Made by a program: the position numbers and the translations under genes
Notes under the pieces: model-generated
Told to the model about the DNA's origin: nothing
The model's input: only the letters and a program-made list of their open reading frames with translations
Databases searched by the model: none
Shown here: in pieces, positions 3,282 to 26,873 of the stretch
How the letters are laid out: the number at the start of each line of letters is the position of its first letter
How positions within the stretch are numbered: position 1 is the stretch's first letter
Virus record (IMG/VR): IMGVR_UViG_3300012039_000024
Location: 1 to 26,873 of that record
Source of the DNA: a virus
DNA: 26,873 bases
Direction: 5' to 3' (one strand)

Positions 3282-3450
3282 GATCCCCGCGGGGACTCGT
3301 ATGGTCAACTGCCGGTCGTGCCAAGCGCCGATCTACTTCATCCCACGGCCGAGACAGCCGGGAAAGAAGATGCCGGTCAACCAGGACGGTGTGAGCCACT
3401 TCGCCACTTGCCCAGAGGCCGCATCCTTCCGAAAGGGGAAAACGCCATGA
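3259..3450 (+). CDS. Small zinc-ribbon-like protein (63 aa)
   Basis: The ATG at 3259 follows a G-rich SD (GAGGGGGG); GTG at 3253 is an alternative. The sequence MVNCRSCQAPIYFIP has a CxxC pair, followed by a Pro/Arg/Lys loop, MPVNQDGVSHFATCPEA with His and Cys, and a basic end. Known phage proteins of this type pair the NCRxCxAPI motif with a distal SHFxxCP motif, which would complete a zinc site. Function unknown. Its TGA overlaps the next ATG. Confidence 0.65.
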   Translation: MGKELRFEIPAGTRMVNCRSCQAPIYFIPRPRQPGKKMPVNQDGVSHFATCPEAASFRKGKTP

Positions 3451-3521
3451 GGTACGTCCTCGCCTACCCCATGTTCGTCGCCCTGTTCCTCATCTTCTGG
3501 GTGGAATTCAAGCACAAATGA
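3447..3521 (+). CDS. 24-residue membrane microprotein
   Basis: The ATG at 3447 overlaps the upstream stop (ATGA), with GGGGAAAA upstream as a modest SD. Its own TGA overlaps the ATG of the nuclease gene. The peptide is almost entirely one transmembrane helix (YVLAYPMFVALFLIFWV) with a positive HK end. Flanking overlaps on both sides argue for real translation. Role unknown. Confidence 0.5.
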   Translation: MRYVLAYPMFVALFLIFWVEFKHK

Positions 3522-3823
3522 CCGTCGAGGGGATCATCCAGAAGCAGATCCTCGACTACCTCCGGTGGATGCACATCCTCTGTTGGAGAAACAACACGGG
3601 CCGGCGCGGGGGAGTGTCCTACGGGAGGATCGGATCCTCGGATATTCTGGGGATCCTGAAGCCGTCAGGCCGGTTCCTGGCCATTGAAGTCAAGAAGCCG
3701 GGGGAGAAGCCGACCCAGGAGCAGATCGCCTTCCTCTGGGGCATCGGGGACGCAGGAGGGGTCGCAATCGTCGCCTACTCGGTCGACGACGTGCGGAAGG
3801 CCCTCTACCCCTCCCAGGTGTGA
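3518..3823 (+). CDS. VRR-NUC domain nuclease
   Basis: The ATG at 3518 overlaps the upstream TGA. The 101-residue protein is a stand-alone VRR-NUC domain (PD-(D/E)XK superfamily). Visible elements: E4 and Q8 in the first helix (VEGIIQKQILDYL), a glycine turn, SDILGIL with the first catalytic Asp, FLAIEVKKPG (the E-x-K pair) and PTQEQIAFL with the conserved Gln. Phage members of this family act on branched DNA or as replication-associated nucleases. Early placement next to the initiator-like gene fits DNA processing. The length is typical and the active site looks complete. Confidence 0.85.
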   Translation: MTVEGIIQKQILDYLRWMHILCWRNNTGRRGGVSYGRIGSSDILGILKPSGRFLAIEVKKPGEKPTQEQIAFLWGIGDAGGVAIVAYSVDDVRKALYPSQV

Positions 3824-3898: not shown

Positions 3899-4462
3899 AT
3901 GGGGCGCCCGTCGAAAAATGACGAACTCCTGCCTGACGCCATACCCCCCGCCCCATCCCCGAAAGAAGCGATCTTCCTCCGGATGTACATCGAACATGGA
4001 GACGTAGCCCAGGCCGCCAGGGAGTCAGGGATCTACAAGCCCAGGGGCGCAGGATACAGATCCCACGCGATAGAAGCGGCGAACAGGGTCCTCACCAGAT
4101 TCCAACCACAAGTGAAGCAGATGATGGAAGTCCAGGGGCTCTCGTTCCCTCAACTTCTCAAAAGACTCAACGACGGACTCGATGCGGAGTCCTCCTATGC
4201 GGTGGGCAGGGGAGAGGATCGACACATCGAGACGTATGCGGACCATCGCTCCCGGTCGAAGTACCTCGAGATGGGATTCAAACTCCTGGGATCCTTCCCT
4301 ACGACCCCGGCCGTCGTCAAGATCGGGGGAGACGACAACTCCACCAAGATCGCCATTCAGCACTTCGAGGCGGTCAAGAATATGTCGCCCGAGGAACGTG
4401 ACAGGCGATTCGCCGAGATGATCGAGGCGGCCAAACGCGGGCCCTTGAGGATCGCACGATGA
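3899..4462 (+). CDS. terS: Terminase small subunit
   Basis: The 187-residue product starts MGRPSKNDELLP, a typical lead-in, then SPKEAIFLRMYIEHGDVAQA, which looks like the helix-turn-helix DNA-binding domain of small terminases, followed by ESGIYKPRG and a helical middle likely to form the oligomer. The C-terminal part has an acidic/basic tail (MSPEERDRRFAEMIEAAKRG). The next gene is the large terminase. I see no SD before the ATG at 3899, and the predicted transcription start is within three bases of it. A TTG at 3860 opens the same frame but falls inside the -35 box, so it is rejected. The gene recognises the packaging site and loads the motor. Confidence 0.75.
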   Translation: MGRPSKNDELLPDAIPPAPSPKEAIFLRMYIEHGDVAQAARESGIYKPRGAGYRSHAIEAANRVLTRFQPQVKQMMEVQGLSFPQLLKRLNDGLDAESSYAVGRGEDRHIETYADHRSRSKYLEMGFKLLGSFPTTPAVVKIGGDDNSTKIAIQHFEAVKNMSPEERDRRFAEMIEAAKRGPLRIAR

Positions 4463-5178
4463 CGCCGGAAGAACGCAGGGACCATCGAGATACGCGGCTC
4501 AATCTTCTCAACACGTCCGAGCGGGCGAGGAACTTCGAGTTGGTGAAGTGCGCCGAGGATCCCGCCTACTGGCTCTGGAACGATCAGCACTACGTCTGGA
4601 CCAGGGACGAATACGATCCCGTCAACCCCGTCAAGCCCTTCCCGGACGAGCCCGCACTCCGGGACACCCTCTCCGAGATCCACAACGGCGACCAACAGGT
4701 GACGTGCATCGGCAAGTCCCGGCAACTCACCGTGACCTGGCTCGTCGTCGCCTACTTCCTCTGGTGGGCGCGGTTCAAGGCGAATCAACTCCTGTTCATC
4801 CAATCGAAGAAGGAAGAAGATGCCGCGAACCTCGTGTTCAACAAGGAGCCCGGAATGGCCCGGGCGTCCTTCATCGAGCAGAACCTCCCCTGGTGGATGA
4901 AGCAGCCCGTCTCCGAGTCCTACGGCATCCTCCTGTTCCCCAACGGATCGAAACTCTGGGGCATCCCCCAGGGCGGCGACATCATCCGGTCGTACACGGG
5001 CTCCGGGCTGTTCTCCGACGAGGCGGCCTTTCAGCCGTTCGCCCGCGAGGCGTACCGCGCCGCGAAGGCGTGTTGCCGGAAGATCGTCATGGTGTCGTCT
5101 GCCGAGGGGGGGTCTTTCTTCGGGCAACTGTCGGGATTCGAGGTAGACCAGATCGGGATGTTCGGAGGGGATGCGTGA
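4459..5178 (+). CDS. terL: Terminase large subunit, ATPase half (split gene)
   Basis: The 239-residue protein overlaps the small subunit stop (ATGA). It carries the ATPase domain of a large terminase: the deviant Walker A segment CIGKSRQLTVTW (about residues 82-93), the FIQSKKEEDAA region, Walker B with catalytic Glu in LFSDEAAF (around 185-191) and the coupling motif VMVSSAEGG (about 215-223). It stops shortly after motif III, where an intact terminase would pass into the nuclease domain. The nuclease half is a separate gene at 5264. About 239 plus 292 residues match a normal full-length large terminase. It provides the DNA-translocation motor at the portal. Confidence 0.85.
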   Translation: MTPEERRDHRDTRLNLLNTSERARNFELVKCAEDPAYWLWNDQHYVWTRDEYDPVNPVKPFPDEPALRDTLSEIHNGDQQVTCIGKSRQLTVTWLVVAYFLWWARFKANQLLFIQSKKEEDAANLVFNKEPGMARASFIEQNLPWWMKQPVSESYGILLFPNGSKLWGIPQGGDIIRSYTGSGLFSDEAAFQPFAREAYRAAKACCRKIVMVSSAEGGSFFGQLSGFEVDQIGMFGGDA

Positions 5179-22484: not shown

Positions 22485-25400
22485 ATGGCCGTCGATCCGT
22501 TCGCAGACCTCGCACCACCGAAACCCGCAAGGGATCCGTTTGCGGATCTCGGGCCGCCTGAATCGGTCAAGGACCCGTTCGCGGATCTCGGGCCCCCGCC
22601 GGCCCTGGCGACCGGAGTGGTGGGGGATTACGTCGATCCCTCCGGTATGGGCGTACCGAATAACCCCTTCGCCATGCTCAAGGGAGCCGGCGCGGCGTTC
22701 GTCGACCTGTCCAAGGGAGTCACCCAGGGCCTCGCGGGAGGACTTGCGGCCTCTCTCGCCGCGCCCTCCGCAATCATCGGCGGGCAGCCGGAACTGATCC
22801 CCCAGGCGTTCCATGACGTAGCAGGGGCTTTCCCGATGGAGCCCGTGTGGAACAAGGTTCTTACCCCCGAGGCGAACCTATACCGGGAGCAGATCGGAGC
22901 GCCGATCGCGGAACTCGGGACCCTCCCCACGGCGGGCGAGGAACTCGGGAACATCGTCCTGGAAAAGACCGGATCCCCGGAACTGGCCGCCCTGGCCGCG
23001 ACTCTCCTGCAAGGCGCCCCCCTGGGCTTGACCGGGAAACTCGGATCGGAACTGGTCAAGGGCGGGAAGGCGGCCGGAAAGGCGATCGTCGAGGACATCC
23101 CGCAGGAAATCCTCTACAAGGCGGCTAAAAAGACCACCTACACCCGGGCCGACCTCATCAAGACGATGGCGAACGATCCGAGCGGAGCCCCCCCGGATCT
23201 GCTCGAGCGGATCAAAACCGATACCGCCTTCCGGGAAAAGATCGGGAAACTCATCCGGAAAGGGGATATTTCCGTCGAGGAACTGCACCCGAACTGGCTC
23301 GGGCAGATCCTCGGCAAGGAGCCGATCACTTCCGAGACGGCCGTTACCCCCGAAACACCCCCGGAAAAGGGCCCCGTCGCCTCTCTGACGGAGGCGGCCC
23401 CCGGGACGACCCCTATGTCGTCTGAAGGCACAATCGCCCCGGAGACGCCCCCTGGCGCCCCCGTGGCCCCCGGTCCCGAGCAGATGCCAGTCTCGGCCGA
23501 GCCGTTGGACTCCCGGGCCTTCAAGGACTACTCGACCGCCCTCTCCCAGAGGACCGCATGGCAGCGGGAGGGGTTTGACGTCAAGGTGGAGGAAGCGACC
23601 GTCCCGGGGCTCCCGCATACCGTCACGAAATACCCGAAGGGATCCCTGCCGGCAGAAACGCCGACCGTCACCGATCCTTTCGTCGATCTGGCCCCCGTAT
23701 CCGCTCCCCAGGGGATCCCTCCTTCCCCGGTTGTGGAAACGCCCGTGCTGCAAACGGTGGAAACGCCGTCGACCGCCCCTTCCCCCGGTCCCGCGGCGGG
23801 GCCAGAACCTTCTTTCCCCGGCACGGAACGCCGTGCGGCGCCGGCAACGGAGGCCGAGGGGCCCCGTCAGCGCCGCGCGGATACGGAACGCCGAGCGAAA
23901 GTGCAGGAGATGATCGACCGCGGAGACGTGGAGGGCGTCCACGCGGCCATATACACCGATCCGCTTACCGGCATCAAGAACCGCCGTGCATGGGACGAAG
24001 CCGACAAAACCGACGCACGATTCGTGACTCTCGACCTCGAGGGAATGAAGGCCGTCAACGATGCGCCTGAATTCGGCCACGCGGTAGGCGATATTCTCTT
24101 GAAGAACGCCGCAGACGCCCTTGTGGAGGCGGGACTCGACCCGTACCGCACCGGGGGGGATGAATTCTCCCTCCTGTTCGACAAGGATACCGAGTCGACC
24201 ACCCTGAACCGCCTCGGAGAGGCAAAGAGAATCTTCGGGGAGAAGGAAATCGCCTTTGAGGCGCAGGATGGTACTAAAATCGTCCTCAAAGACGCCAAAT
24301 TCAATTTCGGGGTGGGAACAAGTGAACAAGAAGCCGATTTCTACGCCAACGAAGCCAAGCGAATCTCCGTCGAAGCAGGGCTCCGGGCCCGTCGTGGTGA
24401 ACTCCCTGCCTGGGCTCGTCGAGGAATTGCGGAAGCACGGATGGCTAAAGCCCCCGAAACCGGACAACTCCCCCGTGCCGAAGGGGATCAGGAGGTAGCA
24501 GATGGATCACGAACACCACAAGCCGAGGAAATCGTCCCGGCCGCCATCCAGAAAGACGCTCTCCATGCCCCCGAGCGAAATGCCCCCGTCGATGCGGGAA
24601 ATGAACCCGCTCAAGGAAAGGCAGCAGAAGCGGGTCCGGGTGGAGGAAAGACTCCGCAAGCGGTAGTTCCTCCCGAGATCGCCAAGTCCGACGCCCTCAC
24701 CCCGTCCGACCCTGTTCCGGAACTCGCCAAGGGGGAACGGATCACCCGCGGGAACGTAACCGCATGGGTGGAACAGGTCATCGTCAACAAGTTCCCGGCC
24801 TGGGTTGCAAAGCATAAGACGGAGGGCTCGGATGTTGTCCTGACGGAAGGTGGGGCAGGAGCGGGCCTCTGGACGAAGGGACAGGCGATCGAACGGGCCG
24901 CCCGGAACTTGCGGGAGGGGCGAATCATCGGGGATCGAATCGGTGATAAGGGAACCGCCCCCGTGCCGGCCGCGATCGCCAAAGAGGAAAAGCCCCCCAC
25001 CCGTCCATTCGTCTACAAGCCCTACGCGGTGGGGGATTTCGTCGACGTCCTCGCCGGCAGGGGTACTGGCGATTGGGTGAAGGGAACGGTGAACGAGGTA
25101 ATCAACCGGGAGGGAACGACTCCGGATTACCTGGTCTACATCCCCTCGCAGAACAAGAAGATGACGTTCCGCGGCCCGGAAATCCGGAAATCGGACCTTG
25201 CCAAGGACATGACGATCGACGTCACGCCGGAAGTCCCCGCCTTGGTGCCGGCCGCGATCGCAAAGACCGAGGAAGATGAACGAGTAACGTCTACGAATGG
25301 GAAGGGAGTCAGCGATCCGGAGAAAAGAGACAAACTTCTCGAAAAGATCGGATTGAAGGTCGGAGAAGTAATCGAATTCAAGTGGAACGCCGACCAACCT

Positions 25401-26873
25401 GATTGGGGGACCACGACCGTTGTAGGAGTCTCCGATACCAAGGATGGCCCTGTTCCGATCACCAGGCCAAAGACGCGACACGCCCTTGCCCCCAATGATG
25501 TGTTGTGGGATCCGTCCACCTGGCGAAAGATTGAGAAGAAGAAAAAGGTAACGGCGATCGCCAAGCCCCCCGAAGAAGTCACCCACCCGCTACCGACACC
25601 CCCTCCCGGCGATCGGTGGATCGCAGACCGCGGCGCCATCCCCGGGGAACCGTCGCACTTCCTCGACGGCGAGACGGCCGAAGATGCGAAGGGGATCCTC
25701 ATCGAGCGGGTTTCCGAGCAGGGTACGTCCTCCTGGGACGGGTACATCATGGTGGACGGAAAACCCCTCCCCGTCGCCGACCGGATGACGTTCAAGGAAG
25801 CCGCGAAAAAGGTTGAGGAAAAGGTTGACAAGAGTACAATAAAAGTAGGGGAAGGAGAAGCCGATGGGTTGGAAGGTGGACCTCCTGGAGAACCTGGAAC
25901 TCTGCCGGCCGGAACTCCTGGCGCAGATGAAGGCGCAGGGGACGTTGGAGAAGTACCTCGAGAGCCGGGAGGACCAGGCGATCGAGATGTTCAAGCGCCT
26001 GAAAAAGGACGGACTCCACGACGACCAGGCCGAAGAACTGGTAATAAACGACCTGTTTCTGAGGGAGAAGGAGGAACCGGAGGACCTGTAGAGCCGGAAG
26101 TCCTCGACGAAGTAGCCCCCGCCGTAGCGGAAGCCAACGAAGAATTCGGAATCACCCCCGGCAAAACCGATTACGTCTTAACCCCCGAGGACGTGGATTT
26201 CAAGGGCCGCGGCGCGGTCACACGCTCCCGCGACAATATCGCCGCGATCAAACTCGCTCAACTGCTCGAGAAGGAAGGACGCCTCGCTACCCCCGAGGAA
26301 CAGAAAACCCTCGTCCGGTATTCCGGGTGGGGCGGGCTCTCCAACGCTTTCCGCGGGCATTGGGGCGGCGGCGAGAACAAGACGTGGAACGACATTCACA
26401 CCGAACTTGAGGATATTCTCCCGCGGGACATTTACCTCGCATCCCGCGATTCGGTCTTAAACGCGCACTACACGTCCCTCGAAGTGGTCGACGCCATGTG
26501 GGCGGCCGTCCGTGCGGCCGGCTTCAAGGGCGGCCGCGTCCTCGAGCCCGGGGCGGGGATCGGCAACTTCCTCATGCGAACGCCGGCAGACCTCCGCGGG
26601 AAGGTCCGGTTCACGGCCGTCGAACTCGACGTGATGACGGGCGCCATCCTGAAACAACTGAACCAGTCCCACGACGTTCGGGTGCAGGGATACCAGGAAT
26701 CGGCCCTCTCGGATAACTTCTACGACCTGGCGATCTCCAACGTGCCTTTCGTGGAGACGCCGATCCTCTCCGATGCGCGGTTCACCCGTCAGCGGTTCGT
26801 CCTCCATGACTACTACTTCGCCAAGACCCTGGACAAGGTTCGTCCGGGGGGATTGATCGCCTTCATCACGTCC
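22485..26873 (+). CDS. Polyvalent virion protein: DPFADL repeats, GGDEF domain, DarB-like DNA methylase (partial)
   Basis: Open from ATG 22485 (directly after a TAA) to the edge: at least 1463 residues, 3' end missing. Order: three DPFADL motifs at residues 4-35; hydrophobic Gly/Ala helices to about 85; a charged region; a second motif DPFVDLAP at 397-404; a GGDEF domain at about 488-640 (DPLTGIKNRRAW, DLEGMKAVND, GHAVGD, RTGGDEF at 555-561, no RxxD inhibitory site five residues before); linkers with VPAAIAK repeats; small beta domains; and from about 1210 a DarB-like N6-adenine methylase with YSGWGGL (1279), VLEPGAGIGNF (motif I, 1352) and SNVPF (motif IV, 1418). Related phage proteins are injected with DNA against restriction. 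It contains overprinted small ORFs in the +1 frame. Confidence 0.8.
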   Translation, partial: MAVDPFADLAPPKPARDPFADLGPPESVKDPFADLGPPPALATGVVGDYVDPSGMGVPNNPFAMLKGAGAAFVDLSKGVTQGLAGGLAASLAAPSAIIGGQPELIPQAFHDVAGAFPMEPVWNKVLTPEANLYREQIGAPIAELGTLPTAGEELGNIVLEKTGSPELAALAATLLQGAPLGLTGKLGSELVKGGKAAGKAIVEDIPQEILYKAAKKTTYTRADLIKTMANDPSGAPPDLLERIKTDTAFREKIGKLIRKGDISVEELHPNWLGQILGKEPITSETAVTPETPPEKGPVASLTEAAPGTTPMSSEGTIAPETPPGAPVAPGPEQMPVSAEPLDSRAFKDYSTALSQRTAWQREGFDVKVEEATVPGLPHTVTKYPKGSLPAETPTVTDPFVDLAPVSAPQGIPPSPVVETPVLQTVETPSTAPSPGPAAGPEPSFPGTERRAAPATEAEGPRQRRADTERRAKVQEMIDRGDVEGVHAAIYTDPLTGIKNRRAWDEADKTDARFVTLDLEGMKAVNDAPEFGHAVGDILLKNAADALVEAGLDPYRTGGDEFSLLFDKDTESTTLNRLGEAKRIFGEKEIAFEAQDGTKIVLKDAKFNFGVGTSEQEADFYANEAKRISVEAGLRARRGELPAWARRGIAEARMAKAPETGQLPRAEGDQEVADGSRTPQAEEIVPAAIQKDALHAPERNAPVDAGNEPAQGKAAEAGPGGGKTPQAVVPPEIAKSDALTPSDPVPELAKGERITRGNVTAWVEQVIVNKFPAWVAKHKTEGSDVVLTEGGAGAGLWTKGQAIERAARNLREGRIIGDRIGDKGTAPVPAAIAKEEKPPTRPFVYKPYAVGDFVDVLAGRGTGDWVKGTVNEVINREGTTPDYLVYIPSQNKKMTFRGPEIRKSDLAKDMTIDVTPEVPALVPAAIAKTEEDERVTSTNGKGVSDPEKRDKLLEKIGLKVGEVIEFKWNADQPDWGTTTVVGVSDTKDGPVPITRPKTRHALAPNDVLWDPSTWRKIEKKKKVTAIAKPPEEVTHPLPTPPPGDRWIADRGAIPGEPSHFLDGETAEDAKGILIERVSEQGTSSWDGYIMVDGKPLPVADRMTFKEAAKKVEEKVDKSTIKVGEGEADGLEGGPPGEPGTLPAGTPGADEGAGDVGEVPREPGGPGDRDVQAPEKGRTPRRPGRRTGNKRPVSEGEGGTGGPVEPEVLDEVAPAVAEANEEFGITPGKTDYVLTPEDVDFKGRGAVTRSRDNIAAIKLAQLLEKEGRLATPEEQKTLVRYSGWGGLSNAFRGHWGGGENKTWNDIHTELEDILPRDIYLASRDSVLNAHYTSLEVVDAMWAAVRAAGFKGGRVLEPGAGIGNFLMRTPADLRGKVRFTAVELDVMTGAILKQLNQSHDVRVQGYQESALSDNFYDLAISNVPFVETPILSDARFTRQRFVLHDYYFAKTLDKVRPGGLIAFITS
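22494..22589 (+). repeat. Three DPFADL peptide repeats (13-residue period) at N-terminus of polyvalent protein
   Basis: DPFADLAPP, DPFADLGPP and DPFADLGPPP lie at residues 4, 17 and 30. A fourth variant, DPFVDLAPV, is coded at 23673. Similar motifs start other giant phage proteins. A short linear motif for packaging into the head or binding another internal protein is inferred. Confidence 0.75.
24322..24498 (+). CDS. Embedded small ORF A in polyvalent gene, +1 frame (58 aa)
   Basis: The GTG at 24322 gives 58 codons ending in TAG three bases before ORF B. The SD is weak. By hand count about 81% of its codons end in G or C, like normal genes here, against about half in the polyvalent frame over the same bases. 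The product has a Ser/Pro/Lys start (VNKKPISTPTKPSESPSKQG) and an ordered-looking second half, LPGLVEELRKHGWLKPP. Function unknown. The first third overlaps the end of the GGDEF domain, so both frames may be constrained there. Confidence 0.4.
   Translation: MNKKPISTPTKPSESPSKQGSGPVVVNSLPGLVEELRKHGWLKPPKPDNSPVPKGIRR
24502..24666 (+). CDS. Embedded small ORF B in polyvalent gene, +1 frame (54 aa)
   Basis: The ATG at 24502 has a perfect GGAGGT five bases upstream (24491-24496), overlapping the stop of ORF A. By hand count 44 of 54 codons end in G or C (81%), while the polyvalent frame over the same bases is near 46%. The product is short, basic and Met/Pro-rich (MDHEHHKPRKSSRPPSRKTL, then MPPSEMPPSMREMN) and ends in a Lys/Arg/Glu helix. 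No membrane segment. Function unknown. The polyvalent frame reads a low-complexity linker here. Confidence 0.5.
   Translation: MDHEHHKPRKSSRPPSRKTLSMPPSEMPPSMREMNPLKERQQKRVRVEERLRKR
25813..25840 (+). promoter_or_regulatory. Candidate internal promoter for embedded ORF C
   Basis: TTGAGG (25813-25818), a 16-base spacer and TACAAT (25835-25840) lie just upstream of ORF C, with initiation expected near 25847. An A-rich stretch is unusual in this GC-rich gene. TTGACA at 25825 is too close to the -10 to pair with it. Confidence 0.35.
25864..26091 (+). CDS. Embedded small ORF C in polyvalent gene, +1 frame (75 aa)
   Basis: The ATG at 25864 has AAGGAG six bases upstream and a candidate promoter before it. 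The protein looks like a compact all-helical fold: MGWKVDLLENLELCRPELLA, then MKAQGTLEKYLESREDQ, MFKRLKKDGLHDDQAEEL and an acidic tail. By hand count 64 of 75 codons end in G or C (85%) against 17 of 76 (22%) in the polyvalent frame, which here reads only Gly/Pro/Arg-rich linker (GGPPGEPG...). I remember similar small proteins in other phages but no function. This is the best-supported overprinted gene of the window. Confidence 0.65.
   Translation: MGWKVDLLENLELCRPELLAQMKAQGTLEKYLESREDQAIEMFKRLKKDGLHDDQAEELVINDLFLREKEEPEDL

Follow-up and report, generated by a model that had tools for sequence, protein, structure and literature searches.

Positions 25864-26091 of the window, the 26,873-nucleotide stretch of viral DNA analysed here, appear to encode two proteins: a small TnpV-like protein with four predicted helices and, one base out of register, a linker segment of a giant DarB-like polyvalent protein. 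We propose, with a probability of roughly 85%, that the small gene is the older of the two and became enclosed when its two neighbours fused through it. The features concerned are as follows.

22485-26873, plus strand: giant DarB-like polyvalent ORF (phrog_10089), 1463 aa in the window and running past its end.
23937-24275, plus strand: GGDEF (diguanylate cyclase) domain (PF00990), residues 485-597 of the long ORF.
25813-25840, plus strand: sigma-70-like promoter candidate TTGAGG-16-TACAAT, suggestive only.
25852-25857, plus strand: Shine-Dalgarno AAGGAG, ending 6 nt 5' of the nested ATG.
25863-26090, plus strand: overlap segment of the giant ORF, 76 codons; a Gly/Pro/Arg/Glu-rich, stop-free linker with no detectable amino-acid constraint.
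25864-26091, plus strand: nested TnpV-like gene of 75 aa with four predicted helices, in the +1 frame of the giant ORF; the coordinates include its stop codon.
26199-26873, plus strand: start of a conserved N6-adenine methyltransferase domain of the giant ORF, continuing off the window.

DarB-type antirestriction machinery is used by phages and conjugative elements against restriction. Residues 1106-1463 of the giant ORF match phrog_10089 (DarB-like antirestriction; E 1.8e-83) and comprise a DarB-type N6-adenine methyltransferase domain, inside which the window closes, short of where a C-terminal SF2 helicase would lie; helicase domains are present in the related long ORFs of L107, L112, L135 and L039. 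The giant ORF is therefore of the same kind as the DarB-like polyvalent methyltransferase-helicase proteins that occur in phages and conjugative elements (Iyer et al., 2017; PMC5512222). It also contains, within what is a phage polyvalent protein, a PF00990 domain with an intact GGDEF motif (34.1 bits against a cut-off of 23.8). Genes for the large terminase, portal, major head and internal virion proteins lie 5' of the giant ORF in the 26.9-kb record, which makes the window look like a late, virion-related region of a tailed phage.

The nested ORF consists of 75 codons and a TAG stop, wholly within the long ORF (22485-26873) and in its +1 frame. The GC content of third codon positions (GC3) is 17/76 (22.4%) for the long frame across the overlap and 64/75 (85.3%) for the nested frame; both values had been counted by hand in a sequence-only reading of this DNA and, like the ORF coordinates given there, were exact on recomputation. 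Over a sliding 75 codons, the GC3 of the long ORF has its minimum (0.227) at the overlap, the next lowest value being 0.44 and the mean 0.71. The long-frame residues here are rich in Gly, Pro, Arg and Glu, consistent with their earlier description as Gly/Pro/Arg filler, and the AAGGAG Shine-Dalgarno (SD) sequence that had been placed six bases 5' of the ATG is present at 25852-25857. A possible promoter had been noted as well. One promoter-like TTGAGG-16-TACAAT element is indeed found (0.1 expected in shuffled sequence), and the window shares with L002 and L003 a TACAAT/TATAAT hexamer 23 nt 5' of the nested ATG, but TATAAT-like hexamers are so mildly enriched across the family (20-29 and 40-49 nt 5' of nested starts) that a dedicated promoter is not established, and we do not claim one.

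When the 75-aa protein alone was used as the query, no relative was found among viral contigs or plasmids and phages gave one weak match (E=6); searches of PHROGs, NCBIfam and PDB sequences with the small protein returned nothing firm. Relatives could be reached only by way of the long protein first and then a family profile, and those found by this route rule out the reading of the 75-aa protein as an orphan. Searching with the long protein gives two viral contigs with 73% identity to it and a more distant one with 32%. Both near relatives contain a +1 ORF at the same place, with 69% and 60% amino-acid identity, and a recognisable version occurs in the distant one; in one of the near relatives (L003), the long frame 5' of the overlap did not align to the window, yet the small ORF and the methyltransferase are kept. 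An alignment of the methyltransferase domain only was then used to fetch 80 viral and 80 genome loci, which with the earlier loci gave 167 for examination. An iterated small-protein profile, in which only +1 matches were fed back and matches in every frame were counted, located a homologue fully nested in the long ORF in 123 of the 167 loci, always in the +1 phase. The homologue is a separate gene just upstream of the methyltransferase gene in three cyanobacterial loci, and 41 loci gave no match to this profile. At the inclusion threshold there were 123 matches in +1, one in +2 and two in frame 0, those outside +1 being separate, non-nested copies. The product therefore has homologues, and both frames are open in 123 loci; by this comparison the nesting is family-wide and not peculiar to one phage, a scale that the sequence-only reading missed. 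Cultured phages with the nesting include Vibrio phage VvAW1, Klebsiella phages SopranoGao and LASTA, Erwinia phage PEp14 and Ochrobactrum phage POI1126.

The small protein resembles a known family. AlphaFold2 predicts four helices for the window protein (mean pLDDT 85), consistent with the helical product expected earlier, and for a Firmicutes TnpV it predicts four helices in the same order (mean pLDDT 89). TnpV (PF14198) is a transposon-encoded protein of Tn4451-type elements. The window protein scores 17.3 bits against the Pfam model (E 0.0048), below the gathering cut-off of 27 bits, but 29 of 49 family members match PF14198 at E<=0.01, nested Firmicutes copies exceed the cut-off (119.8 bits in L107, 144.8 in L112, 59.2 in L130 and 61.8 in L144), and comparison of the window family profile with the TnpV profile by hhalign gives a probability of 97.3% (E 2.3e-11). 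On the strength of these alignments the window protein is TnpV-like by descent, and we do not file it as a member of Pfam TnpV. The window family shares the order of the four-helix core with TnpV, but the window copy is shorter (75 aa) and lacks the N-terminal strands; moreover, plasmid copies are annotated as separate 'TnpV protein' genes whereas the window copy is nested in another gene. The best PDB match of the predicted fold is a DUF1896 protein (PG0816, PDB: 2apl), with a VIA-align Z of 8.0 over 68 residues. A Z of 8 is within the range of unrelated helical bundles, however, and Foldseek gives a TM of 0.64 to 2apl but an E of 3.8; the match was not recovered when the TnpV model was used as the fold query. 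The Pfam DUF1896 profile was silent in one Firmicutes genome but in the controls as well, so its silence is uninformative. The best BFVD fold match is Q8W6J4_2 (TM 0.79), which to judge from its length is probably the C-terminus of orf33 of Sinorhizobium phage PBC5. Several Firmicutes loci (L090, L113, L114, L124 and L151) carry a second, separate TnpV-like copy 3' of the giant ORF.

Selection on the two frames was compared by classing single-base changes according to their effect on the long and nested proteins, respectively: NN (both altered), NS (long only), SN (nested only) and SS (neither; too few sites to use). The nested omega is then NN/NS and the long omega NN/SN. In the group that contains the window the rates are 0.245 for NN, 0.549 for NS and 0.224 for SN, so that changes which leave the nested protein intact occur at over twice the rate of those which alter it. 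The nested omega is 0.45 [0.33-0.60] and the long omega 1.09 [0.82-1.49], the intervals coming from a bootstrap that resampled codons only, over homologue pairs that share phylogeny and so are not independent. In all six groups compared the interval of the nested omega lies below 1, with values of 0.45 in the window group, 0.10 in Vibrio, 0.22 in Spartobacteria, 0.51 in Firmicutes, and 0.52 and 0.70 in the others, indicating purifying selection on the nested frame. The long omega within the overlap ranges from 0.81 to 1.34 over the same six groups, giving no sign of selection on long-frame amino acids there. The same pairs show ordinary single-frame coding in their methyltransferase domain, with a long omega of 0.03-0.41 and 0.70-0.88 for a virtual +1 frame; in the window group, the long omega falls from 1.09 in the overlap to 0.33 in the adjoining methyltransferase domain. 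The small frame is thus the constrained one, as had been argued from composition, and purifying selection is not confined to the long frame. On this comparative evidence, the 75-codon ORF is a real gene.

Start signals agree with this assignment. Within 150 nt 5' of the conserved core, 64% of 85 non-redundant loci have a start codon whose SD match spans 5 nt or more, as against 4% of random +1-frame places in the same long ORFs; with a match of at least 4 nt the figures are 87% and 12%. Since the small proteins have conserved internal methionines, taking the ATG nearest the core understates the SD signal. This enrichment over random +1 places makes it likely that the nested gene initiates independently. 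That the +1 ORF is a by-product of codon bias, i.e. the shifted frame of a GC-rich gene, open by chance and only seemingly coding, can be dismissed with near certainty: the sequence is indeed GC-rich and other frames of the window hold long spurious ORFs, but the GC3 signal is inverted at the overlap, nested-silent changes are enriched and long-silent ones depleted (the opposite of the methyltransferase control), the homologues match a known protein family and start signals are enriched.

The long frame, for its part, is kept open. In this phase, a long-frame stop can arise only where a nested codon ending in T is followed by one starting with AA, AG or GA. Among 88 non-redundant nested ORFs there are no such stops against 266 expected from T use elsewhere, a comparison that is partly circular in that 'nested' presupposes an open long frame. 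The median expectation per locus is about 2.8 stops and for the window alone 1.4, so that the window's own open frame is mild evidence and the case rests on the family. A cleaner control, covering four genomes, is provided by paralogues within the same genome: in these four Firmicutes genomes, the TnpV copies inside the methyltransferase ORF have no stops in the equivalent frame, whereas nine separate paralogues have 1-8. The idea that the giant protein reads through the small gene as a linker is supported by this difference. A synonymous NNC exists for each NNT codon, so that opening the long frame need not have altered the nested protein. In the +2 phase, by comparison, 47 of 85 nested proteins would force one or more stops on the long frame (wherever Met precedes Lys, Asn, Thr, Ile or Met), which may be the reason for the exclusive use of the +1 phase. 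Within the overlap, then, what is maintained in the long frame is its openness and not its amino acids.

The same lack of amino-acid constraint would also be seen if only the small gene were real over the overlap and the giant ORF were two genes joined by an accidentally open frame, and the genes are in fact separate in the three cyanobacterial loci. We regard this as improbable, given that the upstream frame runs through stop-free in more than 100 loci, where a median of about 2.8 stops per locus would be expected, and that paralogues away from the methyltransferase have 1-8 stops in that frame.

The cyanobacterial loci bear instead on how an enclosed gene might have arisen. In L147, L150 and L157 (about 4300-5000) an upstream gene, a gene of about 80 aa, the small gene and the methyltransferase-helicase gene follow one another, all unfused, and separate TnpV genes are common on plasmids. 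This unfused order, together with the independent TnpV genes, indicates that the small gene probably came first and that the linker of the giant was overprinted on it, and it supports the earlier suggestion that a pre-existing gene was captured. We envisage an ancestral order, deduced from this comparison, of upstream gene, small gene and methyltransferase-helicase gene. The outer two would have fused into a single ORF and the middle gene would not have been lost, because stops in the +1 phase could be removed by changing NNT to the synonymous NNC. The small four-helix TnpV-type protein would then be started from its own AAGGAG and ATG, and the giant protein, made up of the upstream polyvalent module, methyltransferase and helicase, would read the same DNA one base off as a flexible linker.

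One locus departs from this arrangement. In Sinorhizobium phage PBC5 (L174, 8074-8479), the TnpV-like domain is in frame at the C-terminus of the upstream polyvalent orf33, because the long frame shifts just before the small domain relative to phage POI1126. A natural split, a sequencing error and a frameshift signal would each account for this. If the last held generally, a +1 frameshift would add the small domain to the C-terminus of the upstream module, and translation that stays in frame zero would yield the full-length giant. We find this hard to credit for the family: 87% of loci have a start codon and an SD match of at least 4 nt before the domain (12% at random +1-frame places), and PBC5 itself may owe its arrangement to a natural split or to sequencing error.

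Enclosure of an older gene by fusion of its neighbours, our preferred reading, has both a precedent and some unusual features. Nested phage genes are a known kind; lambda Rz1 within Rz is a small +1-frame gene with its own start signals, and the window likewise has such a gene inside a longer one. Here, however, the long partner is among the phage's largest genes and is unconstrained over the overlap, and the nested gene belongs to a family with separate members, so the long frame is probably the newer reading. In the usual picture of overprinting the small nested gene is the newcomer; the DarB/TnpV case would be the reverse. It would provide a concrete example of two genes fusing across one that stays intact, with the newer, overprinted sequence serving the large protein as a linker and the small protein being the older product. 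None of 21 GenBank/RefSeq phage records checked annotates the small gene as a gene of its own, and this ancient, widespread family has apparently escaped notice in phages because gene annotation usually retains a single frame at each locus. The darB region of P1 yielded no TnpV-like ORF. A literature search on overlaps involving TnpV, on genes nested in or overlapping DarB, and on embedded phage genes, covering open-licence papers only, returned no earlier description, and a text search of one account of DarB-like proteins found no mention of TnpV or overlap (Iyer et al., 2017; PMC5512222). Confined to open-licence papers, this search is weak evidence that the family-wide DarB/TnpV case is new.

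As to function, position, co-occurrence and retention through the fusion lead us to favour, tentatively, the view that the small protein partners or regulates the methyltransferase-helicase encoded on the same message, acting in the loading of that enzyme, its virion packaging or its activity control. If so, the small gene would encode a likely partner for the DarB-type antirestriction machinery. The link to the methyltransferase rests on position and co-occurrence, and TnpV is also found far from such genes. Somewhat less likely, in our view, the small protein is unconnected with the methyltransferase and sits there as a mobile-element passenger, such as a TnpV concerned with excision: some elements carry TnpV genes but no methyltransferase of this type, and an excision role has been postulated for the TnpV of Tn4451 from its similarity to lambda Xis (PMC3158075). 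A passenger would not readily explain why, across many phyla, phages and integrated elements keep the place just before the methyltransferase despite a variable upstream module, why the gene outlived the fusion instead of disappearing, or why other small genes fill the same slot where the TnpV-like one is absent.

These other genes come from the 41 loci without a TnpV-type match, several of which have different small +1 ORFs nested at the same place, 5' of the methyltransferase domain. They form three sets.

X1: L077, L081, L083 and L088 (about 4600-4920).
X2: L064, L078 and L087 (about 4590-4930 or 3290-3630), and L089.
X3: L085, L100, L119 and L126.

Pfam gave no firm match for the tested members of the three sets. 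We put it at about even odds that DarB-like genes have a general slot for nesting immediately 5' of the methyltransferase domain, where small genes of various families, always in +1, are kept while the flanking genes fuse through them; some three quarters of the loci here hold the TnpV-like kind, and others hold at least three further families. If so, it would represent a general route by which two genes are joined across a third without its loss, through synonymous removal of stops in a cost-free phase. In all three sets the long frame is stop-free and the substitution pattern of the nested frame is the same as that of the TnpV-like genes.
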